Shown piece after piece: positions 38,858 through 43,770 of a DNA stretch of 64,000 nt. This stretch comes from Cyanobacteria bacterium RU_5_0 (GTDB lineage Bacteria > Cyanobacteriota > Cyanobacteriia > Elainellales > Elainellaceae): NCBI GenBank assembly GCA_012033255.1, contig JAAUSF010000007.1, positions 1 through 64,000 on the forward strand, read 5' to 3'. The stretch's first letter is position 1, and every line of letters begins with the position of its first letter. The notes beneath the pieces are model-generated. The model did not search any database and was not told the origin of the DNA. It was given only the letters and a program-made list of their open reading frames with translations. The position numbers were made by a program, and so were the translations under genes.

Positions 38858-41800
38858 ATGGATTTAACGCCAGCGACCGAAGTTGTTGAGCCTACTCCAC
38901 CAGAGAAAGAGAACAAACCGAATTTTGCTCATCCTCAGGCGGAACAGCAGAAAGCTCTTGCTGGAGTGATCGCACGGATTCGTGAATCCTTGGATTTGGA
39001 GACAATTTTTAAAACGACCGCCACGGAAGTTCGTCAGTTACTCAAAGCCGATCGCGTGGGTGTATTTCGTTTCTATCCAGAGATGGATTGGGAAGGCGAA
39101 TTTGTAGCAGAGGATGTAGCAGAGGGTTGGATATCAGCGATGGCAGCGCGAGTGCATGATCGTTGCTTCAGCGAGAAATATGCTTCGCTTTACATGGAGG
39201 GATGGGTGAATGCGATCGCCGATCTCCAGCAAGTTGAATATGATCAATGTTATCTAGAAATCCTGGAGAAATTTCAAGTCCGTGCTAACATCGTTGCGCC
39301 TCTAATCAAAGGCAGAACGCTTTGGGGTTTGCTCTGCATTCATCAGTGTAGTGGTCCGCGCTATTGGTCAGAATCAGAAGTGGAGTTCGCCAAGCAAATA
39401 GCCGATCAGTTGGGGGTAGCGTTGCAGCATAGTGAATTGCTGATTCAGGCACGATTACAAGCTGAGCAGCAAAAAATGCTGTTTCGGGTCATTGCCCGAA
39501 TTCGCGAGACACTTGATTTGGAGACAATTTTTCAAACAACCGCTACAGAAGTTCGCCAGTTGCTTAAAGCCGATCGAGCCGGTGTGCTTCGCCTTTGTCC
39601 AGACCGCGATTGGGAAGGAGAATTCATTTCAGAAGATGTTGCGGAAGGATGGACATCTACGCTCACTACACGGGTTCATGATCACTGTTTCAGCGAAAAG
39701 TTTGCACTGCTGTATACGCAAGGACGAGTGAATGCGATCGCAGATGTTTACCAAAATGAACTGAGTCCGTGCTACATCGAGATTCTAGAACGCTTCCAAA
39801 TCCGAGCGAACATTACGGCTCCAATTCTCAACGGCAAAAAGCTGTGGGGATTGCTCTGCATTCATCAATGTAGTCATTCCCGTCGATGGGAATCTTACGA
39901 AGTGGAATTTGTCAATCACATTGCTGAGCATTTAGGGGTTGCGGTTCAACAAGCAGAATCGATCGAGCAAGTACAGGCACAGGCAATTCAACTGGGGGAA
40001 GCCGCAGAACGTGAACGCACCGCAGAACGCGATCGAGCCTTAGCCATTACCATCGACAAGATTCGCCAATCTCTTGATTTAGAAATAATTTTTCACACCA
40101 CTACACAAGAAGTACGGCAATTATTGAATGCCGATCGAGTTGCCATTTACCAATTCAATTCTGACTGGACAGGGCAATTTGTTGTAGAGTCAGTTGCAGA
40201 AGGATGGAACTCTCTGATACAACAGCAAATTGAAGACCCAGAACTGCGCCAGAACATCAGTGAATGTAGTGTGAGGTATTTAGTAAATTCTCATACATCT
40301 GATACTCATCTGCAAGAAACGGAAGGATCTTCATTTTCTAGAGGAGAAACGTTTCGTGTCTGTGATGATATTTACAGTGCCGGATTCACAGATTGCTATA
40401 TTCAAGCCTTAGAGAGCTATCAAGCAAGAGCCTACATCGTTGTCGCTATTTTTCTCAATCAAACCCTTTGGGGGTTAATCGCAGCCTATCAAAATACAGA
40501 TGCGCGTCATTGGCAACCTGATGAAATTTGCTTGTTGACGCAAATTGCCACTCAACTCGGAATTGCATTAAAACAAGCGGAATATGTTAAGCAGGTGCAA
40601 ACTCAAGCAGCACAACTAGCAAAAGCCGCCGAACGACAACGGGCACTTGCAACAACCGTTGAGAAAATTCGTCAATCGTTAGATATCAACACTATTTTTC
40701 AAATGACGACCCAAGAGGTACGACAACTGTTGGAAGTTGAACGGGTTGCCATTTATCGTTTTTTCTCAAACTGGAGTGGAGAATTCGTTGCAGATTCGAT
40801 CGTCGATGGCTGGACACCGATCGTCAATCCACAGCCCGTAACACCCAACGTTTTCTTATCTAACACAAAGGAAGGACTATATCCCCGCAACGAGACCTTT
40901 GTACCGATTCTACAAGGAGAAAAACTGTGGGGATTGTTGGTTGCCTATCAAAGTTCGCAGCCTCGTTATTGGCAAGACGAAGAAATTAATTTACTCGCCC
41001 AAGTTGGAGTGCAGTTAGGAATTGCCATTCAACAAGCGGAACTATTAGATCAAACTCGGCGGCAGGCAGAAGAACTTACAAAAGCTCTTAAAGAATTGCA
41101 GCAATCGCAAGCCCAATTGATTCAAAAAGAAAAGATGGCAGGTTTAGGACAAATGATTGCTGGCATCGCGCATGAAATTAATAATCCTGTTAATTTCATC
41201 TTCGGGAACTTGCCCCACATTAGCAAATATACACAACGCCTGCTCAGCTTAGTGAATCTCTACGAAAAATATTACCCGGAATCTGTAGCTGAAATTCAGG
41301 AACAAGTGCAGGCGATCGATCTTGATTTCATGAACAAAGATTTGCCTAAAACACTGGCTTCAATGAAGTTAGGAACCGATCGAATCCGTGAGATTGTTCT
41401 TTCTCTGCGGATCTTTTCTCGTTTAGACGAAGCAAAGATGAAATCGGTGAACATTCATGATGGTATAGAAAGCACATTGCTCATCCTACAACACCGAATT
41501 AAAGCGAATGCCATTCGTCCAAAAATTGAAATTATTAAAGAATATAGCGAGTTGCCACTTGTAGAATGCTATCCAGCCCAATTGAACCAAGTGTTCATGA
41601 ATGTATTGACTAATGCGATCGATGCTCTAGAAAAAGGAACAGGCGTTCCTGAAATGAAAGAGCAAGATTGCAAACAAGCAGACACTTCTCACCCTCCTAC
41701 TCCCTATCCCCTAGCCTTCATTCCCTCATCTTCCTCTCCCACCATTTGGATTCGGACTGAAATTTTAGAGGGCGATCGCATGGCTATTCGGATCACAGAC

Positions 41801-42007
41801 AATGGCTGCGGGATTCCAGAACATGTTCGATCGCGCATCTTTGACCCATTTTTTACGACAAAACCGATTGGTCAAGGCACAGGATTAGGATTATCCATCA
41901 GCTACCAAATTGTGGTGGAAAAACACAAAGGACAACTGAAGTGCATTTCTCAACCCAGCCAAGGCGCAGAATTTTCAATAGAGATTCCGATTAGGCGATC
42001 GAATTAA
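38858..42007 (+). CDS. Four-GAF sensor histidine kinase with DXCF cyanobacteriochrome-type GAF domains
   Basis: 1049 residues. Four GAF domains lie at about 40-195, 215-375, 395-580 and 600-735. GAF1 has DRCF at 101-104 and a second Cys in QCYLEIL (Cys131); GAF2 has DHCF at 275-278 and PCYIEIL (Cys305). This is the cysteine pair of DXCF cyanobacteriochromes, which bind a bilin through both. GAF3 keeps only the canonical-position Cys (DCYIQAL, Cys513), and GAF4 has neither. LWGLLCIHQCSGPRYW is the cyanobacteriochrome beta-strand block. The usual His after the canonical Cys is Tyr here. The kinase follows: H-box MIAGIAHEINNPVNF (His near 772), N-box NVLTNAIDAL, DNGCGIPEH and GTGLGLSIS. About 35 low-complexity residues, encoded by C/T-rich repeat-like DNA, are inserted between N-box and G1. 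No response regulator is adjacent. Confidence 0.9.
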   Translation: MDLTPATEVVEPTPPEKENKPNFAHPQAEQQKALAGVIARIRESLDLETIFKTTATEVRQLLKADRVGVFRFYPEMDWEGEFVAEDVAEGWISAMAARVHDRCFSEKYASLYMEGWVNAIADLQQVEYDQCYLEILEKFQVRANIVAPLIKGRTLWGLLCIHQCSGPRYWSESEVEFAKQIADQLGVALQHSELLIQARLQAEQQKMLFRVIARIRETLDLETIFQTTATEVRQLLKADRAGVLRLCPDRDWEGEFISEDVAEGWTSTLTTRVHDHCFSEKFALLYTQGRVNAIADVYQNELSPCYIEILERFQIRANITAPILNGKKLWGLLCIHQCSHSRRWESYEVEFVNHIAEHLGVAVQQAESIEQVQAQAIQLGEAAERERTAERDRALAITIDKIRQSLDLEIIFHTTTQEVRQLLNADRVAIYQFNSDWTGQFVVESVAEGWNSLIQQQIEDPELRQNISECSVRYLVNSHTSDTHLQETEGSSFSRGETFRVCDDIYSAGFTDCYIQALESYQARAYIVVAIFLNQTLWGLIAAYQNTDARHWQPDEICLLTQIATQLGIALKQAEYVKQVQTQAAQLAKAAERQRALATTVEKIRQSLDINTIFQMTTQEVRQLLEVERVAIYRFFSNWSGEFVADSIVDGWTPIVNPQPVTPNVFLSNTKEGLYPRNETFVPILQGEKLWGLLVAYQSSQPRYWQDEEINLLAQVGVQLGIAIQQAELLDQTRRQAEELTKALKELQQSQAQLIQKEKMAGLGQMIAGIAHEINNPVNFIFGNLPHISKYTQRLLSLVNLYEKYYPESVAEIQEQVQAIDLDFMNKDLPKTLASMKLGTDRIREIVLSLRIFSRLDEAKMKSVNIHDGIESTLLILQHRIKANAIRPKIEIIKEYSELPLVECYPAQLNQVFMNVLTNAIDALEKGTGVPEMKEQDCKQADTSHPPTPYPLAFIPSSSSPTIWIRTEILEGDRMAIRITDNGCGIPEHVRSRIFDPFFTTKPIGQGTGLGLSISYQIVVEKHKGQLKCISQPSQGAEFSIEIPIRRSN
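41686..41742 (+). repeat. C/T-rich intergenic-type repeat inside the sensor kinase gene
   Basis: CTCACCCTCCTACTCCCTAT and the following TTCATTCCCTCATCTTCC text resemble the heptamer blocks found between genes (for example 47816-47883). Here they encode a Pro/Ser-rich insertion in the ATPase domain. Confidence 0.6.
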
Positions 42008-42187: not shown

Positions 42188-42559
42188 CTATCGGAGAAAT
42201 TCGATATCAAGTTCCAGCTTCTCTCCGAGCCATAGGGAACGATCGGTGTGATCTCCCACGTCATCGCCCGTCTCAGGGTGGATGAGAATATCTAGCCCTT
42301 CATGATGGAGCATCAACCACGGGACGACCTTGCCAAACTGATTTGGTGAAAATGAAACTTGATACATCGCTTTGGGATGGGGGCCGATCGGCTGCTCATG
42401 CCAACGCCCAAGCTGCACCTCAAACTTCGCATCCAACCCTTCACGCACCCGCATCGCGGCATCGCGGCTCTCCGGATCGAAGTAAACATGAGCGTGAAAA
42501 TCTATGATCTCGATCGTGTCTGCTTGCATCATATGGACATGGTAGAGGAACGGAGGCAT
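42188..42559 (-). CDS. DOPA 4,5-dioxygenase family protein
   Basis: 123 residues from ATG 42559 (42529 is a second candidate, giving MQADTIEIIDFHAHVYFDP). The longer frame to 42772 is rejected because its N-terminus is encoded by a GTAGGGGCAA-type repeat. The motifs are those of the family: FHAHVYFDP at the start, GPHPKAMYQVSF in the middle and LMLHHEGLDILIHPETGDD...H at the end, giving the conserved His set. In fungi and plants such enzymes cleave catechols to make betalains; bacterial members have unproven substrates. Confidence 0.85.
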   Translation of the reverse strand: MPPFLYHVHMMQADTIEIIDFHAHVYFDPESRDAAMRVREGLDAKFEVQLGRWHEQPIGPHPKAMYQVSFSPNQFGKVVPWLMLHHEGLDILIHPETGDDVGDHTDRSLWLGEKLELDIEFLR

Positions 42560-42824
42560 AGTCATCAAGCGATCGCGATGGCACAGCAAATGTTCCACCT
42601 GTAAATTTTCTGGTGATGGATGCGTGGGGTAGGGGCAATCCCTGCGAGGTTGCCCTGGATTAGAGGGTAGACACGTCGGTCTGCCCCGACTGGTGGCAAA
42701 ATCAACAAAAAATTGACAGGTGAAAATCGTTACAACGGACAGTTCCGATCGTTTCTGTACGTCCGTTACCATCCGTTGCTGACTATGATTTGTCTTAACT
42801 TATTTTCCTGCGGACTCTGGGATT

Positions 42825-43175
42825 TTACTGTGGTCTAGATTGTCTTGGAATCAACGGAATCTCTACTGAGTCGCGGAACTGTTGAACCGAGTCACTGAAG
42901 GCGATCGGCAATACAGCTTCAACGTTCTCATGAGGGCGCGGAATGATCACCCACGATTCCAATGTTCCACCGTAGCAGCTTTCAGCCGCTTCCACACCTG
43001 CCGCCATTGCCGTTTTGACTTCGGAAACATCGCCTCGAATCATCACACAAAACCGCGCACTGCCACATCGCTGATAGCCAACCAACGTCACTCGTCCGGC
43101 TTTCACCATCGCATCGGCAGCTGCCAATATTCCCGGAAATCCTTTCGTCTCTAATGCTCCAACCGCAACAGGCAT
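42825..43175 (-). CDS. ccmK4: Carboxysome shell hexamer protein CcmK4
   Basis: 116 residues, a single BMC domain. AVGALETKGFPGILAAADAMVKAGRVTLVGY is the shell-protein start; the pore-side sequence RCGSARFCVMIRGDVSEVK differs from CcmK2 (KIGS) and agrees with CcmK4. The tail PRPHENVEAVLPI is also typical. CcmK3 and CcmK4 form mixed hexamers and are usually encoded together away from the main ccm operon, as here, with ccmK3 203 bases upstream on the same strand. They tune shell permeability of beta-carboxysomes. Confidence 0.93.
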   Translation of the reverse strand: MPVAVGALETKGFPGILAAADAMVKAGRVTLVGYQRCGSARFCVMIRGDVSEVKTAMAAGVEAAESCYGGTLESWVIIPRPHENVEAVLPIAFSDSVQQFRDSVEIPLIPRQSRPQ

Positions 43176-43378
43176 TGCTGTTATCTCCTATGTCAGTGGT
43201 GAACGCCACCCTTTATTCTACTGAGTCTATAGCCCAAGTTCTATCGCAACTATCGGATCTATTGGGGTCAGAAGAATTAAAATTCAATATTGAAGATTAA
43301 GAAAAGCAAATAAGTTTGTCGCGATCGTTACTTGTCCTATGTTCGTTGTCTTTCGCAAATGACCCATGACCCATGACT

Positions 43379-43693
43379 TTACATCCAGCGAAACTGTTCT
43401 ACTTTCTCGGTGTAATGAATGGGCAAGACGGATTCTACATTTTCTGGAGGGTTGGGAACGATGTAGTAGGTCACTAGCTTGCCATTGGGAGGGGCGGTTC
43501 CGGCGGCTTCAATGCCAGCTTCCATTGCAGGTCTGACTTCGGAGATGGGACCTCGAATTGCGACAACCTGTTCGCCACTTTCGGCAATGTCGTAGTAGAC
43601 GATCGTCACTCGTCCTGCCTTCACCATTGCATCTGCCGCCGCCAATACTGCCGGAAATCCCAATGTTTCAATGACACCAACCGCCTCAGGCAT
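43379..43693 (-). CDS. ccmK3: Carboxysome shell protein CcmK3
   Basis: 104 residues from ATG 43693 with GAGGGA seven bases upstream; the frame to 43717 is less likely. It is a BMC domain: EAVGVIETLGFPAVLAAADAMVKAGRVTIVYYD. The pore region AESGEQVVAIRG and the tail YIVPNPPENVESVLPIHYTEKVEQFR match CcmK3 rather than CcmK1/2/4. CcmK3 is thought not to form homohexamers but to join CcmK4. The satellite arrangement indicates that the main ccmKLMNO genes lie elsewhere in the genome. Confidence 0.92.
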   Translation of the reverse strand: MPEAVGVIETLGFPAVLAAADAMVKAGRVTIVYYDIAESGEQVVAIRGPISEVRPAMEAGIEAAGTAPPNGKLVTYYIVPNPPENVESVLPIHYTEKVEQFRWM

Positions 43694-43770
43694 TCTCAAT
43701 CCCTCGCTTGTCGTCAATTCATGCTTAGAGAATTCTACCTCTACATGACCTGGAGAGTCGTGCGTAAGTT

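Follow-up and report, generated by a model that had tools for sequence, protein, structure and literature searches.

A cyanobacterial histidine kinase with two DXCF GAF domains, a candidate insert-Cys GAF domain and a conserved "dwarf" GAF domain

In insert-Cys cyanobacteriochromes (CBCRs), the second cysteine is situated in an insertion loop, within a poorly conserved CXXR/K motif, and DTYL or DTHL occupies the place of the DXCF motif (PMC5240096). In NpF2164g5 and in engineered variants, a Tyr following the attachment Cys is accompanied by weak or absent photoconversion (PMC9378818): NpF2164g5 is a natural red/green CBCR with Cys-Tyr (CY) and undetected photoconversion, the His-to-Tyr exchange in SPI1085g3 C448S increased both biliverdin binding and fluorescence, and His-to-Tyr was also a key step for miRFP670nano (PMC9378818, PMC6336887). 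The transmission of a light change from tandem bilin-binding GAF domains to the kinase is poorly understood.

The window analyzed here (64,000 nucleotides of contig JAAUSF010000007.1 from Cyanobacteria bacterium RU_5_0) encodes a protein in which Pfam recognizes four GAF stretches, an HATPase_c domain (80.8 bits) and a weak HisKA match (18.3 bits, below its cut-off of 26.9). Despite this sub-cut-off score, HATPase_c together with a plain H-box (AHEINNPVNFIFGN) identifies the product as a sensor histidine kinase, whose cysteines include those at positions 103, 131, 277, 305, 470, 502 and 513 (Table 1). GAGG is found shortly upstream of the ATG; the reverse complement of the gene, read in a single frame, contains many stops, and, for the minus strand, the open reading frame list of the window holds no frame inside 38858-42007 that reaches 80 aa. 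Reading this kinase as a photoreceptor is sound and conventional; what is new is the different assignment of GAF3 and the existence of a conserved dwarf GAF.

Table 1. Coordinates of the kinase gene and of its domains and motifs in the window.
Feature	Position	Strand	Basis
Four-GAF sensor histidine kinase, 1049 aa	38858..42007	+	open reading frame, translation, Pfam
GAF1, aa 29-198, DXCF-type CBCR GAF	38942..39451	+	PDB matches, tree
GAF1 D-R-C103-F (101-104), second Cys	39158..39169	+	translation, motif scan
GAF1 canonical C131-Y132 (QCY)	39248..39253	+	translation
GAF2, aa 203-372, DXCF-type CBCR GAF	39464..39973	+	PDB matches, tree
GAF2 D-H-C277-F (275-278), second Cys	39680..39691	+	translation, motif scan
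GAF2 canonical C305-Y306 (PCY)	39770..39775	+	translation
GAF3, aa 394-590, candidate insert-Cys CBCR GAF inside XRG clade	40037..40627	+	PDB matches, alignment, model, tree
GAF3 long loop, aa 450-481, 32 residues	40205..40300	+	alignment
GAF3 Cys470, candidate insert-Cys in C-S-V-R (CXXR)	40265..40267	+	alignment, published motif
GAF3 D482-T-H-L, at DXCF position	40301..40312	+	alignment
GAF3 Cys502, extra Cys in R-V-C-D-D-I-Y	40361..40363	+	alignment
GAF3 canonical C513-Y514	40394..40399	+	translation, alignment
GAF4, aa 593-735, dwarf GAF without bilin-binding block	40634..41062	+	alignment, genome search, model, dN/dS
HisKA region with H-box (AHEINNPVNF), phospho-acceptor His772	41147..41227	+	Pfam, Cys/residue listing
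HATPase_c domain, aa 906-1046	41573..41995	+	Pfam

GAF1 and GAF2 share 65% identity and look like duplicates. The second Cys of the Asp-Xaa-Cys-Phe motif is present in both (D101-R-C-F and D275-H-C-F), the canonical Cys (C131 and C305) follows 28 residues later, and the usual but non-obligatory His after it is replaced by Tyr. The first-pass annotation had read DRCF at 101-104, QC131Y, DHCF at 275-278, PC305Y and, in GAF3, DC513Y, and each of them was found exactly there. The highest-ranking PDB entries for GAF1 and GAF2 are CBCR GAFs without exception (E about 1e-41 to 1e-31; top matches at 5e-41 and 9e-40, respectively), and a reversed motif pattern scanned against the DNA of 116 genomes gave 0 matches; together, these results argue that the motif is not due to chance.

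In a tree of 62 GAF domains including references of known structure (supports given as number pairs; phytochrome GAFs taken as outgroup by our own choice, the root not being inferred by the program), GAF1 and GAF2 belong to a 26-row DXCF clade (98/96) which contains no reference of known structure. This clade is sister to the XRG (red/green) clade (join 99/92), within which GAF3 and GAF4 are located (100/100); TePixJ branches off outside the two (97/93), and beyond it come the GAFs belonging to the PHY-bearing (phytochrome) proteins of the genome. The earlier suggestion that GAF1 and GAF2 are photosensory is thus sustained at the sequence level, and a position of both outside the CBCR clade, which had been named as the outcome speaking against it, did not occur.

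The Tyr in place of His had also been pointed out beforehand as a variation. It is real in GAF1 and GAF2, but it is natural and not rare: DXCF-to-C[H/Y] sites of exact spacing amount to approximately 358 with Cys-His (CH) and 106 with CY in 116 genomes of the class (hand sums of per-genome columns from a DNA pattern scan), so that Tyr occupies about 23% of them (~106/464). The idea that CY is an oddity of the window protein was discarded. At least 11 His/Tyr changes are required by the 63 DXCF rows of a 96-row tree, these rows being partly picked for CY. A TePixJ-like chemotaxis transducer of the same genome (L020, G000:C160) has DPCF with CY. In the window kinase, the sites of GAF1, GAF2 and GAF3 are all CY, and by analogy with the published proteins the Tyr may weaken their switching. 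The concurrence of two DXCF domains and a candidate insert-Cys domain in one protein, all with CY, would make it possible to measure what Tyr does to dual-Cys photocycles.

GAF3 had been described as possibly single-Cys, a description that the alignment does not support: its loop before D482-T-H-L comprises 32 residues vs. 14 in AnPixJg2 and NpR6012g4, and the 18 extra residues bring with them Cys470 in a CXXR motif. None of C470, D482, C513 and Y514 varies among 12 aligned relatives, and a plain single-Cys domain was rejected in view of this conserved insert-Cys signature. Among the 44 long-loop GAFs collected, a set biased because it was mostly drawn with GAF3 as query, the loop Cys occurs in 43 and CY in all 44. 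The conserved Trp of WXDXXL is missing from GAF3, and its predicted model (pLDDT 78 overall, below 50 in the loop) matches CBCR structures. The loop Cys with CXXR/K, DT(Y/H)L in the place of DXCF, the canonical Cys and the XRG kinship make GAF3 a candidate insert-Cys CBCR of the UV/violet type. The additional Cys502 is kept in 11 of the 12 rows of alignment A2 and, among the long-loop GAFs, occurs in one subclade only. A 920-aa paralogue in the same genome (L002/L172, G000:C112) carries a DHCF/CH GAF, an insert-Cys GAF (ECSAK, CY) and another DHCF/CH GAF, followed by a kinase of a different type.

The helix with the canonical Cys is missing from GAF4: compared with GAF3, this domain lacks 29 consecutive residues (RVCDDIY to RAYIV), among them the bilin-binding helix. 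In 17 kinases the deletion has identical boundaries and brings R[N/H]E.F next to V.I.[Q/E]G. When 194 genomes of the class were searched at E 1e-60, dwarf-GAF kinases turned up in 16 of them, which belong to 12 genera and five families and include the genome studied here; the same search found no dwarf GAF in the other sampled genomes of the window's family, a distribution suggestive of horizontal transfer or repeated loss. Throughout the 17 proteins, identity to the window protein is 59-77% for the dwarf GAF (median 68%) and 40-63% for the kinase (median 56%). The dN/dS of the dwarf GAF in four close pairs (0.013-0.082, lower than that of the kinase in three of the four, with dS near saturation in several) indicates that it is under strong purifying selection; random decay was discarded in view of the shared boundaries in 17 proteins and dN/dS values of 0.01-0.08. 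The predicted dwarf GAF retains a sheet of four strands along with three long helices (pLDDT 81) and still matches CBCR structures. In the first-pass annotation GAF4 was termed structural; the absence of a canonical Cys stands, but the term was incomplete, since GAF4 is a conserved form with a 29-residue deletion. A search of an open-access library found no paper on truncated or degenerate GAFs in CBCRs.

According to a motif search, the GAFs upstream of the dwarf GAF differ among these kinases (DXCF with CH or CY, insert-Cys, DTHL/CH), and in four of them (L194-L197) the upstream GAFs lack the usual canonical Cys; these four are possibly former light sensors. With the bilin Cys missing from every GAF in some members, bilin is not obligatory for the dwarf-GAF kinase family. 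We infer a signal-coupling role for GAF4 and, more tentatively and at somewhat less than even odds, we propose that the dwarf GAF could be a dedicated coupling module, that is, a CBCR GAF minus its bilin pocket that acts as the constant adaptor within a kinase family, the sensors ahead of it being swapped (blue, UV, red/green) or pigment-less. Being kept more strictly than the kinase while the sensors change type, it offers a deletable element for testing signal transmission.

The window kinase probably senses short-wavelength light through three pigment-binding domains of known types. To the full model, in which GAF1-GAF3 would be bilin-carrying dual-Cys sensors and the bilin-less GAF4 the coupler of a light-regulated kinase, we give a probability of roughly two thirds. 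An unlikely departure from it is that the three domains hold bilin and are left locked or poorly switching by CY (fluorescent, "red-inactive"-like), the kinase being no true photoswitch. The natural CY of NpF2164g5 and the engineered H87Y and C448S_CY do favor fluorescence and weak photoconversion, and three CY sites coincide in this kinase, but those precedents are of the red/green type or biliverdin-bound, and the frequency of CY in DXCF GAFs, together with its presence in every member of the biased long-loop set, argues for a working site. It is likewise improbable that GAF3 is a single-Cys sensor of the red/green type with an incidental C470, as its position in the XRG clade and the low-confidence loop of the model might suggest; C470 is invariant in the aligned relatives, the loop Cys is nearly constant in the biased set of long-loop GAFs, and GAF3 lacks the conserved Trp of WXDXXL.

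Loss of bilin from CBCR-derived GAFs, resulting in a kinase that is constitutive or senses something else, has precedent in the four dwarf-GAF kinases without the usual canonical Cys upstream, and the sequence of GAF1 is diverged around its Cys (GWVNAI..QVEYDQCY). We deem it quite improbable for this kinase, which retains both Cys of GAF1 and of GAF2, plus C470 and C513 of GAF3. Moreover, bilin should be available to it, since the genome encodes one ferredoxin-dependent bilin reductase along with a heme oxygenase.

On the basis of homology, motifs, clade membership, conservation and the deletion in GAF4, the following scheme of bilin binding, colors, signal direction and coupling is proposed for the dual-Cys model. 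The product would be a soluble light-regulated histidine kinase, in which GAF1 and GAF2 would each attach a bilin at C131 and C305 (phycocyanobilin, perhaps isomerized to phycoviolobilin). In the dark state the DXCF Cys (C103 or C277) would add to C10 of the bilin, giving violet/blue absorption; light would isomerize the 15,16 bond, the second bond would be broken and absorption would move toward teal-orange. GAF3 may follow the same scheme with C470 as the insert-Cys, its dark state absorbing in the near-UV/violet. GAF4 would contain no bilin, its sheet and flanking helices receiving the conformational change of the sensors upstream and relaying it to HisKA/HATPase.

A RecD2-type helicase gene adjoins the kinase gene on the opposite strand. 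A DOPA 4,5-dioxygenase-family gene lies downstream (42188-42772, minus strand), and two adjoining BMC-domain genes of the carboxysome shell type (42825-43717, minus strand) are also among the neighbors. No response regulator gene was found in the neighboring frames, and none was seen beside the inspected relatives, as judged by reading the start of every frame; the regulator would be encoded elsewhere in the genome. A search of plasmids gave 13 records, all of them below 60% identity at their best places and none a close named homologue; a scan of named genomes gave two relatives only.

Regarding the known systems, GAF3 resembles the insert-Cys CBCRs NpF2164g3, NpR1597g2, Mbr3854g4 and Mbl3738g2 (PMC5240096) in its loop Cys in CXXR/K before DT(Y/H)L and in its canonical Cys, and differs from them, in a comparison by motif description only, in having CY instead of CH and the extra Cys502. 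The two-GAF DHCF kinases of related cyanobacteria (L034-L041), which are about 55% identical, likewise place tandem DXCF GAFs before the same kinase type, whereas they have CH in both GAFs and neither GAF3 nor the dwarf GAF. GAF1 and GAF2 share with TePixJ (PDB 4GLQ/3VV4) the GAF fold, the spacing from DXCF to the canonical Cys and the clade at large; on the other hand, they belong to a distinct DHCF-type clade closer to XRG, carry CY for CH, and feed a kinase, whereas TePixJ feeds a chemotaxis transducer. Finally, Tyr after the attachment Cys is common to GAF1-GAF3 and to NpF2164g5, miRFP670nano (H87Y) and SPI1085g3 C448S_CY; the latter three are red-absorbing, single-Cys and fluorescent, whereas GAF1-GAF3 are candidate dual-Cys domains.
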